IMG/VR virus record: IMGVR_UViG_3300013127_000017
Span: 1-31,958 of that record
DNA length: 31,958 nucleotides
Strand: one strand, 5' to 3'
DNA from: a virus
A program made the translations under genes and the position numbers. Shown one piece after another: positions 3,515 through 31,958 of this stretch; the stretch's first letter is position 1, and each line of letters opens with the position of its first letter. Under the pieces are notes generated by a model. The model did not search any database. It saw nothing but the letters and a program-made list of their open reading frames with translations, and was not told the DNA's origin.

Positions 3515-5434
3515 ATGCCCGAGACACGCTACCGGACAGTCCTCGAACTCGCGCTCGACGACCGCAACGCAGGTGCGGGCGTGAAGCGCTTGTCATCGAA
3601 GCTGGACGACCTCGGCAAGTCAGTCGAGGAAGCGTTCGCCGGTAGCGCGCTCGCCGAACTGAACAAGACCCTCGATCGCACCGCGAAGCTCATGGAGGGC
3701 ATCGCGAAGCAGCAAGAGAAGGCGTCGCGTGCTGGCCGCTCGGGGGGCGCAGCGGGCACTGTGGCGGGCGCGCTCACCGGCATGGCTCTCGGGCAGGGGC
3801 GAGGGCTCATCGGGGCTCTGGACGCCCACGCAGGGGCAGGGCTGCACGGGGACTACGGGGCGGGCGGACGCATGGCGGGCGGCGCGTGGCTCGCGGGGCG
3901 TGCTGGGGGTCGCTTCGCGGATCGCGCCGCGACGACGATCGGCAACTACGGCGGCATGATGATGAACGAGGGGTTCATCGGACAGATGCTCGCTGGCATT
4001 CCGTGGATCGGCCCGATCTTCGGCGGTGCTGCGTCCGCTGCGGGCGGCTACTACTCGTCGGGCGTCGCGCGCTCGCGTGCGCGTGCAGGCGCGTTCGGCG
4101 CAACAGGGCTCTCCGCGAGCGACATCGGGAGCTTCGGCAACCCGTACGGGCTCGGCCCCACGGAGCTACCGCAAGTGCTCGCGCAATACGCGCAGGCAGC
4201 GGGCGCGCGCGGGCGCGATGAGATCGGCATGGGCTTCGGCACCGCTGCGGACCTCTCGAACCTACTCGGCATCGACTACGGAGCGACGGGCGGGTTCCAG
4301 CGTGCGATGGGCATGACGGCTCTCGGCGGGCGACCCGGTGGGCGGGATCGCGCGGGCGAAATCTTCGCGGTGCAAGACACGCTCGCATCCGCACTCGCCG
4401 CAGGCGTCGAGCAGTCGCAACTCGGTCAGGTGTTGGAGAACCTCTCTTCGACGTTCGAGGACTTGCAGACGCGCGGCATGCTGATCGATCCGTCGAGCCT
4501 CAACTCGCTCGTCCGCGGCTTCGGCGCGCTCGGCGCAGAGGCAGGCTTCGGAGGCATGGCAGGCGTGCGCGCAGCGACGGGCATGACCGAATCGCTGCGC
4601 GGTGTCGGGCAGCGCGAGAACCTGTTCGAGATGCTCGCGCTGCAAGAGGGCGGCTACGGACGCGGGCTCACCTACATGCAGGCGAGGGAACGTCTGGAAG
4701 AGCACCCTGAGCAAGTGCTCCCGCTGCTCTTGCGACGACTGCGCGGCATGGGCGGCGCGCAGGACGAAGAAGGTCGGATGCAGATGCTCATGACGGGCTT
4801 CTCCTCGCTCGGCACGAATCTCTCGACGCGGCAGGCGCGCGGGCTCGCAAACTTGAGCGAAGAGCAGATCGCGCGCTTCACGCAGCCTGGTGGCGACCGC
4901 GAGTTCGCCGAGTACCTCGCGAGCCAGCGCACACAAGTCGGCGGAGGCTTCGGGGTTAGTGAGATCGAAGCAGCGCACGAAGAGCACCGCGCCGGTATTG
5001 GCGACACGATCGGTGACGACTACCGAAGGATCCGCAGCACGGAGATGGAAGTCGTTCAACAACTGCTTCCTCCCGTCGTGGATCTCATGCGGCAGATCAC
5101 CGATGTCGGGCGCAGCCTCTACGATGCCTTCCACGAGGGCGGCCCCGGCGGTCTGCTTCGGCACCTCGCGTCCGTTGCCGCACCGAGCGTCGCGCCGATC
5201 ATCGCTGACGCGCGGCGGACAGCCGATCAAGCGACGAGTTCGACTGACGCGATGGGCACGACGATGGCTACGGGCACGATGACGGCACTCGCGGCAACCG
5301 GGAACCCGATCGCTGCGTCGCTCGTGCCGATCCTCATCGCGCAGATGCGCGACTCGCAGATGGGCAGTCTGATCGCAGACCTGATCGTGGAAGGCGTGCG
5401 ACAAGCAGTCCGCAGAGGGCTCAACTTCGAGTGA
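3515..5434 (+). CDS. Tape measure protein
   Basis: Sets tail length and is ejected ahead of the DNA. The product is 639 aa. Residues 1-75 are an amphipathic, coiled-coil-like helix region rich in Lys/Glu/Leu. A Gly/Ala-rich hydrophobic stretch follows (about 75-195), and then a long helical body with further Ala-rich hydrophobic segments near the C-terminus. This composition and the position after the chaperone pair and before the hub are typical. Using the usual 1.5 Angstrom per residue rule, the tail would be roughly 95 nm; that figure is an inference. The 5' part (about 3740-3900) is unusually rich in GGGGC strings compared with its neighbours. Confidence 0.85.
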   Translation: MPETRYRTVLELALDDRNAGAGVKRLSSKLDDLGKSVEEAFAGSALAELNKTLDRTAKLMEGIAKQQEKASRAGRSGGAAGTVAGALTGMALGQGRGLIGALDAHAGAGLHGDYGAGGRMAGGAWLAGRAGGRFADRAATTIGNYGGMMMNEGFIGQMLAGIPWIGPIFGGAASAAGGYYSSGVARSRARAGAFGATGLSASDIGSFGNPYGLGPTELPQVLAQYAQAAGARGRDEIGMGFGTAADLSNLLGIDYGATGGFQRAMGMTALGGRPGGRDRAGEIFAVQDTLASALAAGVEQSQLGQVLENLSSTFEDLQTRGMLIDPSSLNSLVRGFGALGAEAGFGGMAGVRAATGMTESLRGVGQRENLFEMLALQEGGYGRGLTYMQARERLEEHPEQVLPLLLRRLRGMGGAQDEEGRMQMLMTGFSSLGTNLSTRQARGLANLSEEQIARFTQPGGDREFAEYLASQRTQVGGGFGVSEIEAAHEEHRAGIGDTIGDDYRRIRSTEMEVVQQLLPPVVDLMRQITDVGRSLYDAFHEGGPGGLLRHLASVAAPSVAPIIADARRTADQATSSTDAMGTTMATGTMTALAATGNPIAASLVPILIAQMRDSQMGSLIADLIVEGVRQAVRRGLNFE

Positions 5435-26257: not shown

Positions 26258-26260
26258 CGC

Positions 26261-26302
26261 GAATAGTGCATCCCCGAAACCGGGGTGAGCGTCCTCTACT
26301 GG
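26261..26302 (+). promoter_or_regulatory. Promoter-like repeat, copy 1
   Basis: GAATAGTGCA, 12 bases, then GGGTGAGCGTCCTCTA and CTGG. It keeps exactly the internal spacing of the copies at 27704 and 30897. TCTACT near the 3' end could be a -10. It lies directly after the replication-module terminator and about 118 bp before the next ATG. Confidence 0.6.
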
Positions 26303-26420: not shown

Positions 26421-26675
26421 ATGGCGAGCATCGTCCGCGAACTGAGCGTCTGCACCGACTGCATCTTCTTCATCGCGAACGGCGACCTTCCCGAGAACGA
26501 GAAGGACGCGGAGCGCGTGACTGACGCGGTGAGCGAGTGGTGCCGCAAGCACGACTCCGCGCACATGGTTGCGTCCTCGAACTCCGACGACGAAGCGGAG
26601 TTCTCGTGGCGTCCGTGCGAGTGCTGCCTCTCGCACCTCGGCGGTTCGCGCCACTCCGCGATCCTGCTCCGCTGA
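26421..26675 (+). CDS. Conserved small phage protein with Cys clusters
   Basis: 84 aa from ATG 26421 (GAGGAG about 7 bases upstream). C11-T-D-C14 and C66-E-C68-C69 could bind zinc, and the end reads SHLGGSRHSA. Small proteins with a CxxC N-terminus and a C-x(1,2)-C-x-x-LGG-x-RH ending recur in phages of GC-rich hosts; function unknown. It is the first gene of the accessory block, and its stop is followed by the first linker hairpin. Confidence 0.65.
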   Translation: MASIVRELSVCTDCIFFIANGDLPENEKDAERVTDAVSEWCRKHDSAHMVASSNSDDEAEFSWRPCECCLSHLGGSRHSAILLR

Positions 26676-26691
26676 CATCCGCACGTTCGCT

Positions 26692-26748
26692 GCCCGCCCG
26701 CTCGAAAGAGCGCGGCGGGCTTTCGCGTTAGGAGCGCACGTCGCGCTC
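26692..26748 (+). terminator. Linker hairpins 1 (GAAA tetraloop plus second hairpin)
   Basis: GCCCGCC-CGCTC, GAAA loop, GAGCG, one bulged C, GGCGGGC (26692-26720), then TTTCGCGTT. A second hairpin follows, GAGCGC/GCGCTC with loop ACGTC (26732-26748). The 34 bases 26714-26747 are identical to 27378-27411. The hairpin is terminator-like with a short, imperfect T tract. Confidence 0.75.
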
Positions 26749-26765
26749 AGAAAGAGGATGTCCCG

Positions 26766-27149
26766 ATGAACACTGTCAAGAAGCTCTGCACCGCGCTCGC
26801 GCTCACTTCGTCTGTGACCTACGGCGCGCGCAAGCCGCCGATCGACCCGAACTGGAAGCCCGCGCACTCGTGGACCGTCACGCTCCGCCTCGGGCGCAAG
26901 CGCATGACGGTTGACTTCTTCGGAGGCGCGGCGACCGGCGAGCCGACCGCGAGCGAGGTGCTCTCGTGCCTCATCTCCGACGCGTGCGCCGAGGGGGAGA
27001 GCTTCGAGGAGTGGTGCGACGACTACGGCTACGACAGCGACTCGCGCAGTGCGCTCGCCACGTACGAGGCGTGTGCGAAGAGCGGCGCACGGCTGCGCGA
27101 GTTCCTCGGCGATCACTTCGACACGTTCGCGAATGCCGAGCGTGACTGA
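26766..27149 (+). CDS. Conserved phage protein of unknown function
   Basis: 127 aa. After a basic N-terminus there is a beta segment (HSWTVTLRLGRKRMTVDFF) and then a helical half with SFEEWCDDYGYDSDSRSA and LREFLGDHF. This pattern, a WC-Asp/Glu turn followed by GYD-x-DSR and a FLGD ending, is a recurring small-protein family in phages; no function is known to me. A ribosome-like GAGG lies upstream of the ATG. Confidence 0.65.
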   Translation: MNTVKKLCTALALTSSVTYGARKPPIDPNWKPAHSWTVTLRLGRKRMTVDFFGGAATGEPTASEVLSCLISDACAEGESFEEWCDDYGYDSDSRSALATYEACAKSGARLREFLGDHFDTFANAERD

Positions 27150-27167
27150 GAGGGGAGGTGAGAGAGG

Positions 27168-27347
27168 ATGGACGAACGAACCCCGAAGGAGCGCGTTCGA
27201 TCGCTGCGCGCGCAGTTCGCGGAGTACCGCGACACCGCGGAGGCGGCGATCGACGCGCTCACGAAGGAGCGTGACGCAGCGGCGAAGGACGCTGCGAAGT
27301 GGCGAGCGCTGTACCACGCGCTCGCGACGCGCTCCCCGCGCACGTGA
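27168..27347 (+). CDS. Small coiled-coil protein
   Basis: 59 aa from ATG 27168, 18 bases after the previous stop and preceded by GGGGAGGTGAGAGAGG. Almost the whole product is an Ala/Glu/Arg/Leu helix (VRSLRAQFAEYRDTAEAAID), fit for a coiled coil. It shares a transcript with the preceding gene, since no hairpin separates them, and its stop is followed by linker hairpin 2. Function unknown. Confidence 0.6.
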   Translation: MDERTPKERVRSLRAQFAEYRDTAEAAIDALTKERDAAAKDAAKWRALYHALATRSPRT

Positions 27348-27354
27348 ACATCCT

Positions 27355-27411
27355 GCCCGCCCTGCTCTTCGGAGCACGGCGGGCTTTCGCGTTAGGAGCG
27401 CACGTCGCGCT
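27355..27411 (+). terminator. Linker hairpins 2 (TTCG tetraloop plus second hairpin)
   Basis: GCCCGCC, C, TGCTC, TTCG loop, GAGCA, C, GGCGGGC (27355-27384). The inner loop is the very stable C(UUCG)G type. TTTCGCGTT and AGCGC/GCGCT (27397-27411) follow. Compared with copy 1, the inner stem and loop changed while the ends and the 34-base 3' part stayed exact. Confidence 0.78.
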
Positions 27412-27428
27412 TCCAAGGAGCATCGATC

Positions 27429-27644
27429 ATGTCGGTTCACAGTGACAACGCGCGGACGTTCCGCAACCTCGAACGCCGCGCCTACGAAGAGGGCGCTAGC
27501 ACGGCAGTTGCGCTTGCCGCGGAGCTTGCGACTGCGGGCGGTAACTACCTGCTCGCTTCGCTCATCGAGGGCATCACGAGCGAGGACTACGACCACGACG
27601 CCGCGCTCGCTGCGATCCGCAAGCACACGCAGGCGAAGCGCTGA
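27429..27644 (+). CDS. Small helical protein, unknown
   Basis: 71 aa, with AAGGAG 9-14 bases upstream of the ATG. The product is mostly helical, Ala-rich and mildly acidic (ASTAVALAAELATAGGNYLL). It stands alone between linker hairpins 2 and 3, a one-gene cassette. No motif recognised. Confidence 0.6.
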   Translation: MSVHSDNARTFRNLERRAYEEGASTAVALAAELATAGGNYLLASLIEGITSEDYDHDAALAAIRKHTQAKR

Positions 27645-27660
27645 CATCCCCCGCTCCCGA

Positions 27661-27697
27661 GCCCGCCCGACCCCGTGTCGAGGCGGGCTTTCGCGTT
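27661..27697 (+). terminator. Linker hairpin 3
   Basis: GCCCGCC (27661-27667), CGAC, loop CCCGT, GTCG, bulged A, GGCGGGC (27682-27688), then TTTCGCGTT. It is followed within 10 bases by promoter-like repeat copy 2. Confidence 0.75.
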
Positions 27698-27703
27698 GAA
27701 AGC

Positions 27704-27745
27704 GAATCCTGCACGCGACCCCGCGGGATGAGCTTTCTCTACTGG
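27704..27745 (+). promoter_or_regulatory. Promoter-like repeat, copy 2
   Basis: GAATCCTGCA, 12 bases, GGATGAGCTTTCTCTA, CTGG. TCTACT (27738-27743) is a possible -10. The next ATG is 20 bases downstream, with AAAGG as ribosome site. Copies 2 and 3 share GAATCCTGCA and GGATGAGCTTTCTCTA exactly, at identical spacing. Confidence 0.65.
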
Positions 27746-27765
27746 CACACAACGAAAGGCCCCTC

Positions 27766-28026
27766 ATGTACAACGGAACCCGCGTCTCTCTTCTCGTGAA
27801 GCCGAACTCGCGCTGCAAGAAGGCACGCACCCGCACGGGCACCGTGACTGCGATGTGCGGGGCGAGCACCGTGCTCGTCGCGTGGGACGACGACGGTAGC
27901 AAGGGCGCGTGCTCGATCGCGCGCCTCGTCGTGCTCGTCACGACGTACGACGACGGCGACGAGGATGGCGAGAGCGACGCGTTCTACGCGCGCATGGCCG
28001 ATGCTCAGTACCGCAACGCTCAGTGA
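27766..28026 (+). CDS. Small beta-rich protein, possibly SH3/KOW-like
   Basis: 86 aa. The first 55 residues alternate short strands (TRVSLLVKP, TGTVTAMCG, STVLVAWDDDG, ARLVVLVTTY), as in small SH3/KOW-type barrels with a GxV turn. The rest is acidic and helical. It lies between promoter-like copy 2 and linker hairpin 4, so it may have its own promoter. Function unknown. Confidence 0.6.
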   Translation: MYNGTRVSLLVKPNSRCKKARTRTGTVTAMCGASTVLVAWDDDGSKGACSIARLVVLVTTYDDGDEDGESDAFYARMADAQYRNAQ

Positions 28027-28033
28027 CCCACGC

Positions 28034-28070
28034 GCCCGCCCGGCTGTCAGCCGAGGCGGGCTTCGTGCGT
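28034..28070 (+). terminator. Linker hairpin 4
   Basis: GCCCGCC (28034-28040), CGGCT, loop GTC, AGCCG, bulged A, GGCGGGC (28055-28061), then TTCGTGCGT. The next gene's ribosome site AGGAGG follows at 28071-28076, so the linker ends right at the start of the next cassette. Confidence 0.72.
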
Positions 28071-28081
28071 AGGAGGTCAGC

Positions 28082-28834
28082 ATGGTTCGATTGAGCAACA
28101 CCCCGTTCGAGGCTCTCATGCACTCGATTGCCGCTGCGCTTCTTCGCGCGCGCTCCGCCGAAGAGGCGGATGCAGTTCGCGATGACGCGGAGACGACCCT
28201 CACGCGCTACGTGTCGTCGCACAACGACGACGGCGACGAAGCGTTCGAGCGCGCGCTCAACGAGGCGATGACGCTGCGAGCGCACCTCCGGCGCGCGTAC
28301 GAGCGCGCAGCGGCGCGCAACTTCGAGGTGCCCGCGCGCCCCGACATCCCCACGCTCATCGCGGAGGCGGAGGAAGAGTACCTCGCCGACGATCGTGGCG
28401 ACCCGCGTGCTGGCCGCGCGCACCCGGCCCCCGACTCGCTCGTCGCGATGGACCGCGCGCACGCCACGCTCGTGCGCGAGTACGTCGATGCGAGCGGCGA
28501 CGTGGAGTTCGAGACGGAGTGGAACGTCGCGCGCGCCGCGTTCTGCGCGCGCATGCACGAGTGCTACATGCGCCGCCTCCGGCATCGTTCGGACCTGCGC
28601 GCGCACGCGAACATGCGACTGTGCTCGCCCCCGCCGCGCGCCAAGCGCCCGACCGCGCGCGAGAAGCGCGACGCGGGGATGTTCGCTGCGTGCCGCGGCG
28701 GCGTGATGCACGGCGAGGTCGCGTACCGACGCTTCCTCGCGAACCGCATCCGCTTCGCGCTAGTGGGCCTCACGGTGGGGCTCGCTGCGACGACGGGTGC
28801 TCACGCGCCCGCCGACATGTACTGGCGACCCTGA
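28082..28834 (+). CDS. Unknown helical protein with C-terminal hydrophobic segment
   Basis: 250 aa. Long charged helices rich in Ala, Arg and Glu run through residues 1-200, and residues about 222-240 are hydrophobic (IRFALVGLTVGLAATTGAHA), perhaps a membrane anchor. Only a few Cys are scattered through the middle. It is flanked by linker hairpins 4 and 5. The ribosome site AGGAGG precedes the ATG by five bases. Not recognised. Confidence 0.6.
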   Translation: MVRLSNTPFEALMHSIAAALLRARSAEEADAVRDDAETTLTRYVSSHNDDGDEAFERALNEAMTLRAHLRRAYERAAARNFEVPARPDIPTLIAEAEEEYLADDRGDPRAGRAHPAPDSLVAMDRAHATLVREYVDASGDVEFETEWNVARAAFCARMHECYMRRLRHRSDLRAHANMRLCSPPPRAKRPTAREKRDAGMFAACRGGVMHGEVAYRRFLANRIRFALVGLTVGLAATTGAHAPADMYWRP

Positions 28835-28853
28835 ACATCCCCGTTCCCAACGA

Positions 28854-28910
28854 GCCCGCCCGCGCACTGCGCGAGGCGGGCTTTGCCGTCAGTAGCGCAC
28901 GGTGCGCTAC
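28854..28910 (+). terminator. Linker hairpins 5
   Basis: GCCCGCC (28854-28860), CGCGC, loop ACT, GCGCG, bulged A, GGCGGGC (28875-28881), then CTTTGCC-type tail. A second perfect hairpin follows: GTAGCGCA (28892-28899), loop CGG, TGCGCTAC (28903-28910). The second hairpin recalls the AGCGCAC hairpins of copies 1 and 2. Confidence 0.72.
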
Positions 28911-28931
28911 GTCCGAAGGAGAGAAGAGATC

Positions 28932-29390
28932 ATGACGAACTACAACGGCATCACGAAGAACGACCTCATCACGCTCGTGCTCGCGCGCGGGCTCGCGAAG
29001 AACAAGACCGCCGCGCGCGACATGCCCGCGAACACGCTGCGCGCGCTGCTCGTCGCGCACGACGAGTCGAGCGTCGCGACGGAGGCGCGCGACGAGGACG
29101 TGCTCGCCGAGCCGCACTACGTCGCGCCTGGCGCGGCCGAGGCGCACAAGAGCCCCGCGGGCTTCAACGACTCGCTCCCCGAGAACGCGGGCGCGCACGC
29201 GTCGCCCGTGCTCGCCCCGAGCGCGCCGAAGCAGCGCGTGCGCCTCACGAACGAGCAGCGCGCGAACAAGCTCACGCGCAACCGCCGCCGCCACAAGCGG
29301 CACCTCATGTCCGCCCGGCACGGCTGGGCCAACGGGCAGATGACCCCGCGCGAAGCCGTCCGCGCTGCGCTCATCGAGGCGGAGTCGTGA
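28932..29390 (+). CDS. Small protein with SAP/HeH-like N-terminus, unknown
   Basis: 152 aa from ATG 28932 (GGAG and GAGAAGAG upstream); the in-frame GTG at 28902 lies in a hairpin and is rejected. The N-terminus (GITKNDLITLVLARGLAKN, then MPANTLRALLVAH) resembles a SAP or helix-extension-helix nucleic-acid-binding motif. A Pro/Ala linker follows, then a strongly basic stretch (residues about 110-130, KLTRNRRRHKRHLM). Nucleic acid binding is likely. The stop overlaps the next GTG (GTGA). Confidence 0.58.
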   Translation: MTNYNGITKNDLITLVLARGLAKNKTAARDMPANTLRALLVAHDESSVATEARDEDVLAEPHYVAPGAAEAHKSPAGFNDSLPENAGAHASPVLAPSAPKQRVRLTNEQRANKLTRNRRRHKRHLMSARHGWANGQMTPREAVRAALIEAES

Positions 29391-29587
29391 GCGCACGACC
29401 GAGCGCGCGTGCTCGCCGCATGCGTCCCGACATCCGCAAGCTCGACGTGATCTGCGCCTCGCTCACGACCGCGGGCGACCGCTGGTTGTGGGCGCTCTTG
29501 TGGCGCGACGTGGCGGAGCACGAGACCTACGAGGGCATCGAGACGTGCGAGTGCTGCGCGACGCGCACGCCGCACCAGGGTTTCTGA
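29387..29587 (+). CDS. Small protein with C-terminal Cys cluster, unknown
   Basis: 66 aa from the GTG overlapping the previous stop; a later in-frame ATG at 29420 is an alternative start. The N-terminus is Arg-rich and the end reads IETCECCATRTPHQGF. The CxCC cluster echoes the first accessory gene. Probably co-translated with its upstream neighbour. Function unknown. Confidence 0.5.
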   Translation: MSARPSARARRMRPDIRKLDVICASLTTAGDRWLWALLWRDVAEHETYEGIETCECCATRTPHQGF

Positions 29588-29612
29588 ACGACGACGAAGA
29601 AGGAGGATCCCG

Positions 29613-30557
29613 ATGACGAAGAAAGCAACTAAGACGCGGATGGCGGGGCACGAGGGCCCCGGTCTGCACTACAAGCACGTGCGCACGACGGTGGCGCTCT
29701 TCATGGCGAGCACGCTCTTCGCGAAGCTCGACGACGAGACGCGCGCGCAGTTCCGGGTGATCGTCGATCGCAACTACGACCTCTCGGGCGTGCCCGACGA
29801 GGTGCTCACGGCGACCATCGCGACGCTCGACGATGACGTAATGAAGGCCGCGCGTGCCGAGTTCGAGTTCGAGCCGCGGATGGGCAACATCCGCGACCAC
29901 GGCGCGTGCGTCGCGCACTGCGCTCTCTGCGGCAAGGGCAACAGCAAGGAGGCGGAGGGGGGCACGGAGAACCGCGACAAGCTGCGGTACGACTTCCGCC
30001 TCGCGAACACCGCGGGCGGCAACGACCTCTACGTGGGCGCGGACTGCATCGTGAACTTCGCGCTCAAGGTGAAGGGCGCGGAGACGAGCGCGGAAGCGCG
30101 CGCCATCCTCGAACGGAGCTTGCGCGAGCACCTCGCGATCTGGCGGCAAGAGGCGTGGCGCGCGGAGCACCCTGCGCACGCCACGATCCCCGACCTCTGG
30201 CAGCACTACGTGCGCGCAGGCTTCGAGTGGAAGTACTGGCAGCGCTTCGGGCAGCGCGAGCAGGACATTGCCCTGCTCGGCCAGTCGCAGCACGCGATCT
30301 ACTACAAGCTCGTCGAGCACGCGCGCACGTGCAAGTCGCTCACGCGCTTCTACGAGCGGAAGCACTTCTTGACGGAAGCCAAGACCGAAGAGTGGAAGGC
30401 CGCTCGCGGTTTCATGCTCTCGCTCGCGTGGATGCGCGGTGTCCTCGAAGCGACCGAGGGCATGCAGGGGCAGGCGAAGCACGAAGCACTCACGCGCGCA
30501 CTCGACGCGCGCAAGCGTGCGCTCTCGACCATCAGCCGTCAGCCGCGGAGGCTTTGA
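29613..30557 (+). CDS. Conserved phage protein with a zinc-binding-like segment
   Basis: 314 aa, ribosome site AAGGAGG upstream. The middle carries C99-V-A-H102-C103-A-L-C106-G and, after a beta segment (LRYDFRLANTAGGNDLYVG), C145-I-V-N-F. This CALCG ... VG-x-x-C-I arrangement is a recurring phage domain that likely binds zinc; its function is unknown to me. N- and C-terminal thirds are helical, with many Trp, Arg and Lys. The next gene starts 2 bases after the stop. Confidence 0.6.
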   Translation: MTKKATKTRMAGHEGPGLHYKHVRTTVALFMASTLFAKLDDETRAQFRVIVDRNYDLSGVPDEVLTATIATLDDDVMKAARAEFEFEPRMGNIRDHGACVAHCALCGKGNSKEAEGGTENRDKLRYDFRLANTAGGNDLYVGADCIVNFALKVKGAETSAEARAILERSLREHLAIWRQEAWRAEHPAHATIPDLWQHYVRAGFEWKYWQRFGQREQDIALLGQSQHAIYYKLVEHARTCKSLTRFYERKHFLTEAKTEEWKAARGFMLSLAWMRGVLEATEGMQGQAKHEALTRALDARKRALSTISRQPRRL

Positions 30558-30559
30558 TC

Positions 30560-30835
30560 ATGGCCGAGAAGACGTGGACTGATCAGCCCGACGACTGCGA
30601 GCGCGGCGAAAAGCTCGTGCACGGCTCTTCGCGCGATGGCGCGTGGGAGATCCGGCACGAGCCCAGCGGCAAGTGCTACGTGACGCACGGCAACCTCTTC
30701 GGATCGGAGACGGTCGCGTGCGCGTCGCTGTACGTTGCGTGCCGCGTGCTCGACCTCTTCCTCAACCATCCGCGCGCGGCGAAGGTGCCACCGCCGAAGC
30801 TCCCCACGGGGGCGACGCTGCTCACGGACGACTGA
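30560..30835 (+). CDS. Small protein, unknown
   Basis: 91 aa from ATG 30560, in the transcript of the preceding gene. The middle (WEIRHEPSGKCYVTHGNLFG) is beta-like, a helix follows (CASLYVACRVLDLFLN), and the end is Pro-rich. Not recognised. Its stop is followed by linker hairpin 6. Confidence 0.6.
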   Translation: MAEKTWTDQPDDCERGEKLVHGSSRDGAWEIRHEPSGKCYVTHGNLFGSETVACASLYVACRVLDLFLNHPRAAKVPPPKLPTGATLLTDD

Positions 30836-30847
30836 CCGACCTGCGAT

Positions 30848-30886
30848 GCCCGCCCGCTCTCACCGAGCGCGGCGGGCTTTCGCGTT
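30848..30886 (+). terminator. Linker hairpin 6
   Basis: GCCCGCC (30848-30854), CGCTC, loop TCACC, GAGCG, bulged C, GGCGGGC (30871-30877), then TTTCGCGTT. The outer and inner stems equal those of copy 1, while the loop differs. Promoter-like copy 3 follows. Confidence 0.76.
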
Positions 30887-30896
30887 GCTGGCGATC

Positions 30897-30938
30897 GAAT
30901 CCTGCATCCGCGGCCCACGGATGAGCTTTCTCTATTCT
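30897..30938 (+). promoter_or_regulatory. Promoter-like repeat, copy 3
   Basis: GAATCCTGCA, 12 bases, GGATGAGCTTTCTCTA, TTCT. TATTCT or TCTATT could be the -10. The next ATG is 18 bases downstream with AAAGGAG as ribosome site. Confidence 0.65.
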
Positions 30939-30956
30939 CGAAAGGAGATTCCCCCG

Positions 30957-31937
30957 ATGACGACGACGAAGAGCCCCCGCCGCCTCGCTGCGGCACCGAC
31001 ATCTACCCCCGAGCCCACGCCCGCCCCTGCGCCCGCGATCCTCGCAGGCATCGAGTGGCCCGTGCGCCCCGGTCCCGCACACGAGTACGTCCCGGCCCGC
31101 AAGCCGTGGATCTTCAACCCGCGGATCACGGCCGACCTCAAGGTCGGCGTTGATCTGCACCTCAACGTGCTGCTCACCGGCCCGACGGGCTGCGGCAAGA
31201 CCTCGGTGATCGCCGCGGTCGCGAGCGAGACGAACACGCCGCTCATCCGGTTCAACTGCGACGGCGAGACGCGAGTCTCGAACCTGCGGGGCATGATGAA
31301 GCCCGTCGCGCAGGACGGCGTGCTGAGCCTCGCGTTCTCTCCCGGCGCGCTCGCGACGGCGATGCGCGAGGGCTGGTGGGTGCTGCTCGACGAAGTGGAC
31401 GCGGCGTTGCCGAGCGTCCTCTTCGTCTTGCAGTCGGTGCTCGAAGACGGGCGCGCGCTGCACATCCCCGAGACGGGCGAGACGGTCGTCGCCGACCCGC
31501 GCTTCCGTATCTTCGCCACGGGGAACACGATCGGCTTCCGCGCTTCGGCGCGCGCTCGTCACTCGGGCACGAACCCCATGAATGCGGCCTTCGTGGACCG
31601 CTTCGGGATGGTGCTCTCGGTGTCCTACCCGTCGAAGGAGGAAGAGGCTATGCGCATCCGCGCTCACGTGCCGGAGATCGAGCCGGAGATGTTGGAAGCG
31701 CTGGTCCGCACCGCGGACGCGCTTCGTAAGGACGGCACGTTCAAGACCGATTTCTCGACGCGTCGCTGCATTCAGTGGGCGAAGCTCATCGTCGCGTACG
31801 AGAACGACGCGCTGCGCGCCGCGGACGCCGCGGTGTTGCGCAAGCTCGAATCGCCGCTCGACGCGAAGGTCGCGCGCGAGACGGTCGCGCGGTACTTCGA
31901 CTACTCCGAAGCGGAGCTTACCGAGGCGGGGATCTGA
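30957..31937 (+). CDS. CobS/MoxR-like AAA+ ATPase
   Basis: 326 aa from ATG 30957. AAA+ motifs are in order: Walker A G75-P-T-G-C-G-K81-T82, a pore/loop segment IRFNCDGETRVSNLRG, Walker B WVLLD145-E146, sensor 1 A187-T-G-N190 and arginine-finger region D214-R215-F. The Ala/Pro-rich N-terminus precedes a short insertion typical of CobS. Phages often carry a CobS-like ATPase next to a CobT/VWA partner; the partner could lie beyond the right edge. Cobalt chelation is not implied; a chaperone-like remodelling role is more likely. It probably has its own promoter (copy 3). Confidence 0.8.
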   Translation: MTTTKSPRRLAAAPTSTPEPTPAPAPAILAGIEWPVRPGPAHEYVPARKPWIFNPRITADLKVGVDLHLNVLLTGPTGCGKTSVIAAVASETNTPLIRFNCDGETRVSNLRGMMKPVAQDGVLSLAFSPGALATAMREGWWVLLDEVDAALPSVLFVLQSVLEDGRALHIPETGETVVADPRFRIFATGNTIGFRASARARHSGTNPMNAAFVDRFGMVLSVSYPSKEEEAMRIRAHVPEIEPEMLEALVRTADALRKDGTFKTDFSTRRCIQWAKLIVAYENDALRAADAAVLRKLESPLDAKVARETVARYFDYSEAELTEAGI

Positions 31938-31940
31938 AAT

Positions 31941-31958
31941 GCCCGCCGTGCGTACCTA
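31941..31958 (+). repeat. Start of a seventh linker hairpin at the window edge
   Basis: GCCCGCC begins 3 bases after the ATPase stop, as in the six complete linkers, and the window ends before the 3' arm. It suggests the cassette pattern continues. Confidence 0.6.

Follow-up and report, generated by a model that had tools for sequence, protein, structure and literature searches.

Repeated terminator-type hairpins between the accessory genes of a contractile-tailed phage, and hammerhead ribozyme motifs in the corresponding interval of its relatives

What does a phage gain by placing the same type of RNA hairpin again and again behind its small accessory genes? The question is raised by a 31,958-base stretch of DNA (hereafter the window), which is the complete IMG/VR record IMGVR_UViG_3300013127_000017 and represents a contractile-tailed phage. 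Its gene order comprises the tail sheath, baseplate genes, a DnaB-like helicase, a primase, a block of small genes and a CobS/MoxR-type AAA ATPase, and six hairpins with the arms GCCCGCC...GGCGGGC were identified in this last part. The interpretation that we favour, with a probability of roughly two in three, is that the hairpins represent six copies of an intrinsic terminator native to the lineage, multiplied among the accessory genes and partitioning the block into short modules of transcription or of mRNA.

The hairpins are located on the plus strand at 26692..26729, 27355..27393, 27661..27697, 28034..28070, 28854..28890 and 30848..30886 (copies 1 to 6), where an earlier interpretation made from the letters only (the sequence-only reading) had placed them. 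All six lie 7–19 nt 3' of a stop codon, on the same strand as the genes. Such hairpins numbered 0.013 on average, and 1 at most, in 300 dinucleotide-preserving shuffles; a hairpin with a following TT was seen six times in the window and never in the shuffles. No hairpin of this kind with a T-stretch was found at the other gene boundaries of the window, the other 26 kb being free of it. A seventh copy had been proposed at 31941. The sequence there, ATGCCCGCCGTG..., begins ATGCCCGCC and is more probably the start of the next open reading frame (ORF), because an ATG lies one base past the stop codon of the AAA ATPase gene, where the contig ends. The modules bounded by the hairpins contain 1, 2, 1, 1, 1 and 4 genes; the description as one-gene cassettes thus suits four of the six intervals, but not those between copies 1 and 2 (two genes) and copies 5 and 6 (four genes). 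As had been claimed, the genes are unrelated, with no mutual similarity detected by blastp among the 11 proteins of the region.

The outer stem of the linker consists of 7 pairs and is invariant in the six copies, while the inner stem of 4–5 pairs is variable with compensation, and both sides are changed in three pairs. The covariation score of the inner stem was 0.222 compared to 0.077 in shuffled alignments; 1 of 500 shuffles reached the observed value, and slid controls gave 0.02–0.10. Compensation across six copies is good but not massive evidence, and it agrees with the earlier observation that the inner stems differ and yet remain paired. The GAAA and TTCG tetraloops noted before are present in copies 1 and 2. 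The hairpin energies range from −20.7 to −25.6 kcal/mol (28–30 nt), which corresponds to the stable GC-rich stem-loop of an intrinsic terminator. The T-stretch is confined to one side of the hairpin, with TTT after the stem in five copies and TT in one, followed by an interruption, and its scores are weak. Regarding the sequence contexts reported as recurrent, TGACATCC or TGAACATCC was confirmed directly 5' of copies 1, 2, 3 and 5, whereas the tail TTTCGCGTT was present in four of the six copies (copy 1 among them), copies 4 and 5 having TTCGTGCGT and TTTGCCGTC, respectively.

Further structural features are restricted to some of the copies. A second hairpin (GAGCGCACGTCGCGCTC and variants) is located 3' of copies 1, 2 and 5: as GAGCGCACGTCGCGCTC at 26732–26748, at about 27394–27413, and as GTAGCGCAC...GTGCGCTAC immediately 3' of copy 5. 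A bulged A or C is found between the stems, on the 3' side, in five of the six copies, copy 2 having a C-C mismatch and no bulge, and a three-way junction is predicted for copies 1 and 2. The conserved bulge, which recurs in the hairpin of one relative, and the predicted junction could indicate an undescribed RNA, either self-cleaving or bound by a protein, in place of the hammerheads carried by related phages (described below). We consider this very improbable, as there are no conserved unpaired core nucleotides outside the hairpins, the features are not common to copies 3, 4 and 6, and Rfam scans were empty.

A promoter-like element was observed three times in the window, on the plus strand, and two of the three lie directly 3' of a linker. 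The first (CGAA-TAG-TGC...CTCTACT, 26260..26300) follows the primase gene immediately and heads the accessory block; its function as a promoter is putative. The second (CGAATCCTGC...CTCTACT, 27703..27743) follows copy 3, and the third (CGAATCCTGC...CTCTATT, 30896..30936) follows copy 6, ahead of the AAA ATPase gene. In the relatives a homologous element occurs once each, directly after the primase and therefore at the head of the block. The exact element was not found in other viral contigs, and a sigma-70 promoter scan of the window returned no hits. Copy 4 is followed by neither a second hairpin nor a promoter-like element, and the next start lies about 20 nt beyond the hairpin.

The relatives were obtained by searching viral contigs with the primase, the 314-residue protein encoded in the block and the AAA protein, and share about 50–67% protein identity. 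They comprise G001 (3300045921_000267), G002 (3300044940_000161) and G003 (3300027823_000001), the last picked up via the 314-residue and AAA proteins; given that G001 and G002 are nearly identical in the region, they were counted as one observation. A covariance model built from the six hairpins (R1), a search that the sequence-only reading had suggested, yielded six strong matches in the window, and each of the three relatives had a single strong match (40.3, 36.4 and 36.4 bits). In loci L007 (from the near-identical pair) and L058 (from G003), the match lies 15–25 nt after the stop codon of orthologous K/A-rich genes (76% identical, 138 residues), at the end of a gene run that starts with the AAA gene. 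These orthologous hairpins have different inner letters and longer, terminator-like T-tails (TTTGTCGTTTC and TTTTTCGTTTC); the L058 hairpin has a bulged C at the equivalent place and the L007 hairpin has a perfect stem. At an orthologous operon end the arms have thus been retained although the interior differs, and on this basis the array in the window is read as multiplied terminators. This is the main reason for our interpretation, and it favours the earlier view of the modules as terminator-bounded.

Several observations weigh against our interpretation. The d'Aubenton-Carafa-type T scores of the six copies are 2.0–2.6, below the values of 3.2 and 4.3 obtained for the orthologous terminators in the relatives, and a terminator scan flagged none of the six because their tails are short. 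No recognisable promoter follows copies 1, 2, 4 and 5, and complete termination would therefore silence the next genes. The weak tails (TTTCGCGTT) suggest leaky termination or 3'-end protection. The weak U-tails and the lack of a promoter-like element after these four copies would also be expected if the hairpins were mainly mRNA stability or processing elements, with the block being read through, host nucleases cutting between the modules and hairpins shielding the 3' and 5' ends. The linker hairpin itself would then guard 3' ends and the second hairpin, where present (copies 1, 2 and 5), would guard 5' ends, resulting in hammerhead-like products; the paired hairpins that follow the stops at these copies, as well as the self-cleaving RNA motifs in the corresponding interval of the relatives, are consistent with this. 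However, the one-sided T-stretch is kept in all six copies as well as in the hairpins at the orthologous operon end, and neither a known cleavage motif nor a known ribozyme was found in the block. We therefore regard a main role in stability or processing as possible, although rather unlikely.

If the hairpins are multiplied terminators, their placement, each behind a single accessory gene or a few of them, would split the block into short units, the mRNA upstream of each being hairpin-ended. The 7-bp GC arms together with the U-stretch would set the 3' end, either through termination or through the protection of a trimmed 3' end. As this U-stretch is short and contains interruptions, termination is likely to be partial, with some polymerase reading into the next module. 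At copies 3 and 6 transcription would restart at the promoter-like element; at the other copies, either polymerase would have to pass the weak terminator or a host nuclease would have to cut the transcript. At copies 1, 2 and 5, the second hairpin would be part of the following gene's 5' leader.

The accessory genes in the corresponding interval of the relatives are separated by a different structured RNA. These linkers have the motif GCCC-GAAA-stem III-UC-stem I-CUGACGA-U-GGGC, and with three stems and exact GAAA and CUGANGA cores they are type II hammerheads (RF02276) by motif. They occupy two boundaries in G001/G002 (L007:11506-11568 and L007:11885-11947, which flank one gene and are 99% identical, likewise in L006) and one in G003 (L058:7655-7707); examples from other uncultivated phages were found in L065–L106. 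Among 4227 Rfam families, Hammerhead_II ranked first for the two L007 copies (E 0.016 and 0.013) and second for L058 (E 0.039); each of these matches is under the gathering score. A covariance model of our own (R2) recovers the hammerheads in G001–G003. When applied to the window with filters off, R2 gave partial chance matches only (best E 0.32); no RNA family was detected in the window by Rfam, at either the gathering or relaxed thresholds, and a search for the GAAA/CUGANGA motif showed it to be absent, so that the linkers of the window are not type II hammerheads. Relatives that kept the same genes in fixed order without linkers would have spoken against the modular view; instead, their genes in this interval differ and hammerheads stand at the boundaries given above.

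A pattern scan detected the hammerhead pattern in 42 viral stretches, and a structure descriptor identified 52 distinct hammerheads in the loci examined. The cleavage-site nucleotide is C in 49 of them and A in three, the descriptor having excluded only G at this position. The 52 lie at a median of 5 nt past a stop codon and 31 nt ahead of a start codon. The constancy of GAAAC and CUGACGAUGGG partly reflects the selection of hits, because the search pattern fixed those letters; the stems, unfixed beyond CCC/GGG, covary strongly (0.624 compared to 0.148 shuffled, 0 of 500 shuffles, 18-sequence alignment). Hammerhead linkers occur in many uncultivated phages, and several contigs contain rows of 3–5 (L069, L075, L078, L085, L087, L090 and L098). 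In nearly all of these hammerheads a single additional U lies between CUGANGA and stem II, a feature favoured by the search pattern, and those tested scored under the Rfam gathering score. In L098 (reverse strand), a strong ordinary terminator (GACCCCCCGGC...GCCGGGGGGTCTTTTTC) at about 4160–4200 lies one gene past four hammerheads that stand in a row among small genes; the hammerheads there therefore mark boundaries between genes and not the end of the operon.

When a type II hammerhead is cleaved, the stem III hairpin is left at the 3' end of the upstream RNA and the stem I hairpin at the 5' end of the downstream RNA. In the relatives, the hammerheads most likely cut a polycistronic accessory transcript into hairpin-capped mRNAs, which would be a task equivalent to that of the array. 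Copies 1, 2 and 5 of the window may be viewed as a comparable hairpin pair without the catalytic core, parallel to the hammerhead products. Two RNA devices thus appear to serve one job within one phage lineage. It could further be proposed that the gene-separating device is exchangeable within the lineage, hammerheads against hairpin array, and that the two-hairpin linkers are an undescribed RNA-processing element doing the ribozyme's job and not plain terminators; we find this unlikely.

The exchange of whole modules, which the sequence-only reading proposed, is supported in part. The seven ORFs at 26421–29390 have no detectable relative in G001–G003, while the flanks are conserved; counterparts were found for the 66-residue ORF at 29387 (in G003 only), the 314-residue gene and the AAA gene. 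In addition, the gene at 30560 together with hairpin 6 and its promoter-like element is inserted between two genes that are directly adjacent in the relatives. Array genes so wholly unlike those of the relatives could mean that the linkers serve chiefly as recombination homology for gene gain and loss through cassette exchange, with RNA structure being secondary. The 35 identical bases of copies 1 and 2 (34 had been counted previously) and the L007 locus, where two 99%-identical linkers surround one gene and a third is truncated, point in the same direction. Nevertheless, this stretch of 35 bp is confined to copies 1 and 2, most copies have only the short arms in common, and neither a phage with a partial version of the array nor a related phage with the array, which would allow comparison, was found. 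As the inner stems diverge yet remain paired, selection on RNA structure is indicated, and recombination as the chief role of the linkers seems quite improbable to us; the homology for recombination proposed in the sequence-only reading is putative. The truncated linker (L007:12491-12534) retains the 5' part CTGACCCGAGCCCGAAACG, has lost the remainder and adjoins the start of the next gene; it is a possible remnant of linker deletion.

With an imperfect hairpin behind short ORFs, the array also bears a superficial likeness to integron cassettes with attC sites or to another site-specific recombination array. The attC core sites (RYYYAAC...GTTRRRY) are absent from all linkers and from the whole window, and with zero such sites an integron cassette array was rejected as extremely improbable.

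Apart from the window, the exact arms and tail pattern (…GGCGGGCTTTCGCGTT) was found in five stretches of viral contigs with one copy each, and the array was not seen elsewhere. A looser hairpin pattern is common in phages as a single terminator, and among the matches listed a few contigs have 2–4 near-identical copies. Near-identical GCCCGCC terminators are repeated in L231 (11904 and 12267, about 360 bp apart) and L214 (73, 778 and 2440). Paired GTGTTGA...TCAACAC palindromes, which resemble an operator/promoter linker, lie after both of those in L231. These GCCCGCC...GGCGGGC terminators are similar to those of the window in being repeated, here with 2–4 copies, but they differ in having perfect stems without a bulge, an A-run on the other side (two-way terminators) and near-identical copies.

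Three described systems resemble the array. PeSLs are composite promoter-terminator motifs of T4-type phages (Arbiol et al., 2010; Comeau et al., 2014; cited in PMC4503421; also PMC3950731). As far as the titles of these papers and the papers citing them describe PeSLs, the common features are repeated stem-loop linkers between small accessory genes and high gene turnover, and two of the six window linkers add a promoter-like element. However, the window phage is unrelated and of high GC, four of the six linkers lack the element, three have a second hairpin, and promoter activity is only putative. Each PeSL linker, by the same sources, combines a stem-loop with an early promoter; with the element after copies 3 and 6 only, the window has a PeSL-like layout and is not a member. 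Morons are single genes with a promoter and a terminator (PMC4378225), and the gene at 30560 with hairpin 6 and the promoter-like element, placed between genes that are neighbours in the relatives, resembles one. It is extra relative to the relatives, yet the element lies after the gene and not before it, and the window has a row of modules with a common terminator type, some of two or four genes, rather than isolated insertions. Clustered type II hammerheads that flank single prophage genes have been described, with the proposal that they process polycistronic phage RNA by cleavage into mRNAs of gene length (Perreault et al., 2011; PMC3088659; Rfam RF02276). The relatives of the window phage share their layout of stop codon, structured RNA and next start codon, whereas the hairpins of the window have terminator-like tails and no hammerhead, GAAA/CUGANGA cores being absent.

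The genes of the block are all on the plus strand. The first (26421..26675, 84 residues) belongs to phrog_3034 (unknown function; PHROGs E 3e-15) and has no counterpart in the related phages. The second (26766..27149, 127 residues) belongs to phrog_4273 (unknown function; E 1e-22) and forms one module with a 59-residue ORF (27168..27347) that has a ribosome-binding-site-like upstream sequence, with no intervening hairpin. No family was assigned to the genes at 27429..27644 (71 residues) and 28082..28834 (250 residues), and the gene at 27766..28026 (86 residues) has a weak DUF4314-like match (E 0.005) under the Pfam cut-off. The four-gene module (28932..30835) contains genes 28932–29390, 29387–29587, 29613–30557 and 30560–30835, of which the third is kept in the relatives and the fourth is missing from them. 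The AAA ATPase (CobS/MoxR-like, phrog_249; 30957..31937) flanks the array and shows 58–67% identity in the relatives; PADLOC gave generic AAA matches only. GenBank phages gave no match for the 314-residue protein and distant matches only for the AAA gene. The 314-residue protein (conserved CALCGKG motif, function unassigned) adjoins the AAA ATPase in all lineage members, the window pair 29613–30557 and 30957–31937 corresponding to L007 13596–15599 and L058 8916–10972, and in the window one additional gene sits between the two. Small genes in tandem duplication (ATGAGCACCATCGAAGGCCTGCTTGTCCGCCTCCGGGAC...) were seen at L058 5041–5690, in the accessory block of G003. A tRNA search of the window returned none.

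Hammerhead arrays, promoter-terminator linkers and morons are each already known, and what makes the locus interesting is that the linker device is swapped between relatives. A limited literature search returned no description of related phages that have the two devices at comparable positions. The locus links two separately described phage ways of marking off small exchangeable genes, namely terminator-type stem-loops and hammerhead arrays, and it adds a set of small phage genes of unknown function in a fast-turnover block. It further provides a testable case for the open question of the purpose of phage hammerheads. If a terminator-type hairpin can replace a hammerhead, then the role of the hammerhead is probably the formation of mRNA 3' and 5' ends between single genes.

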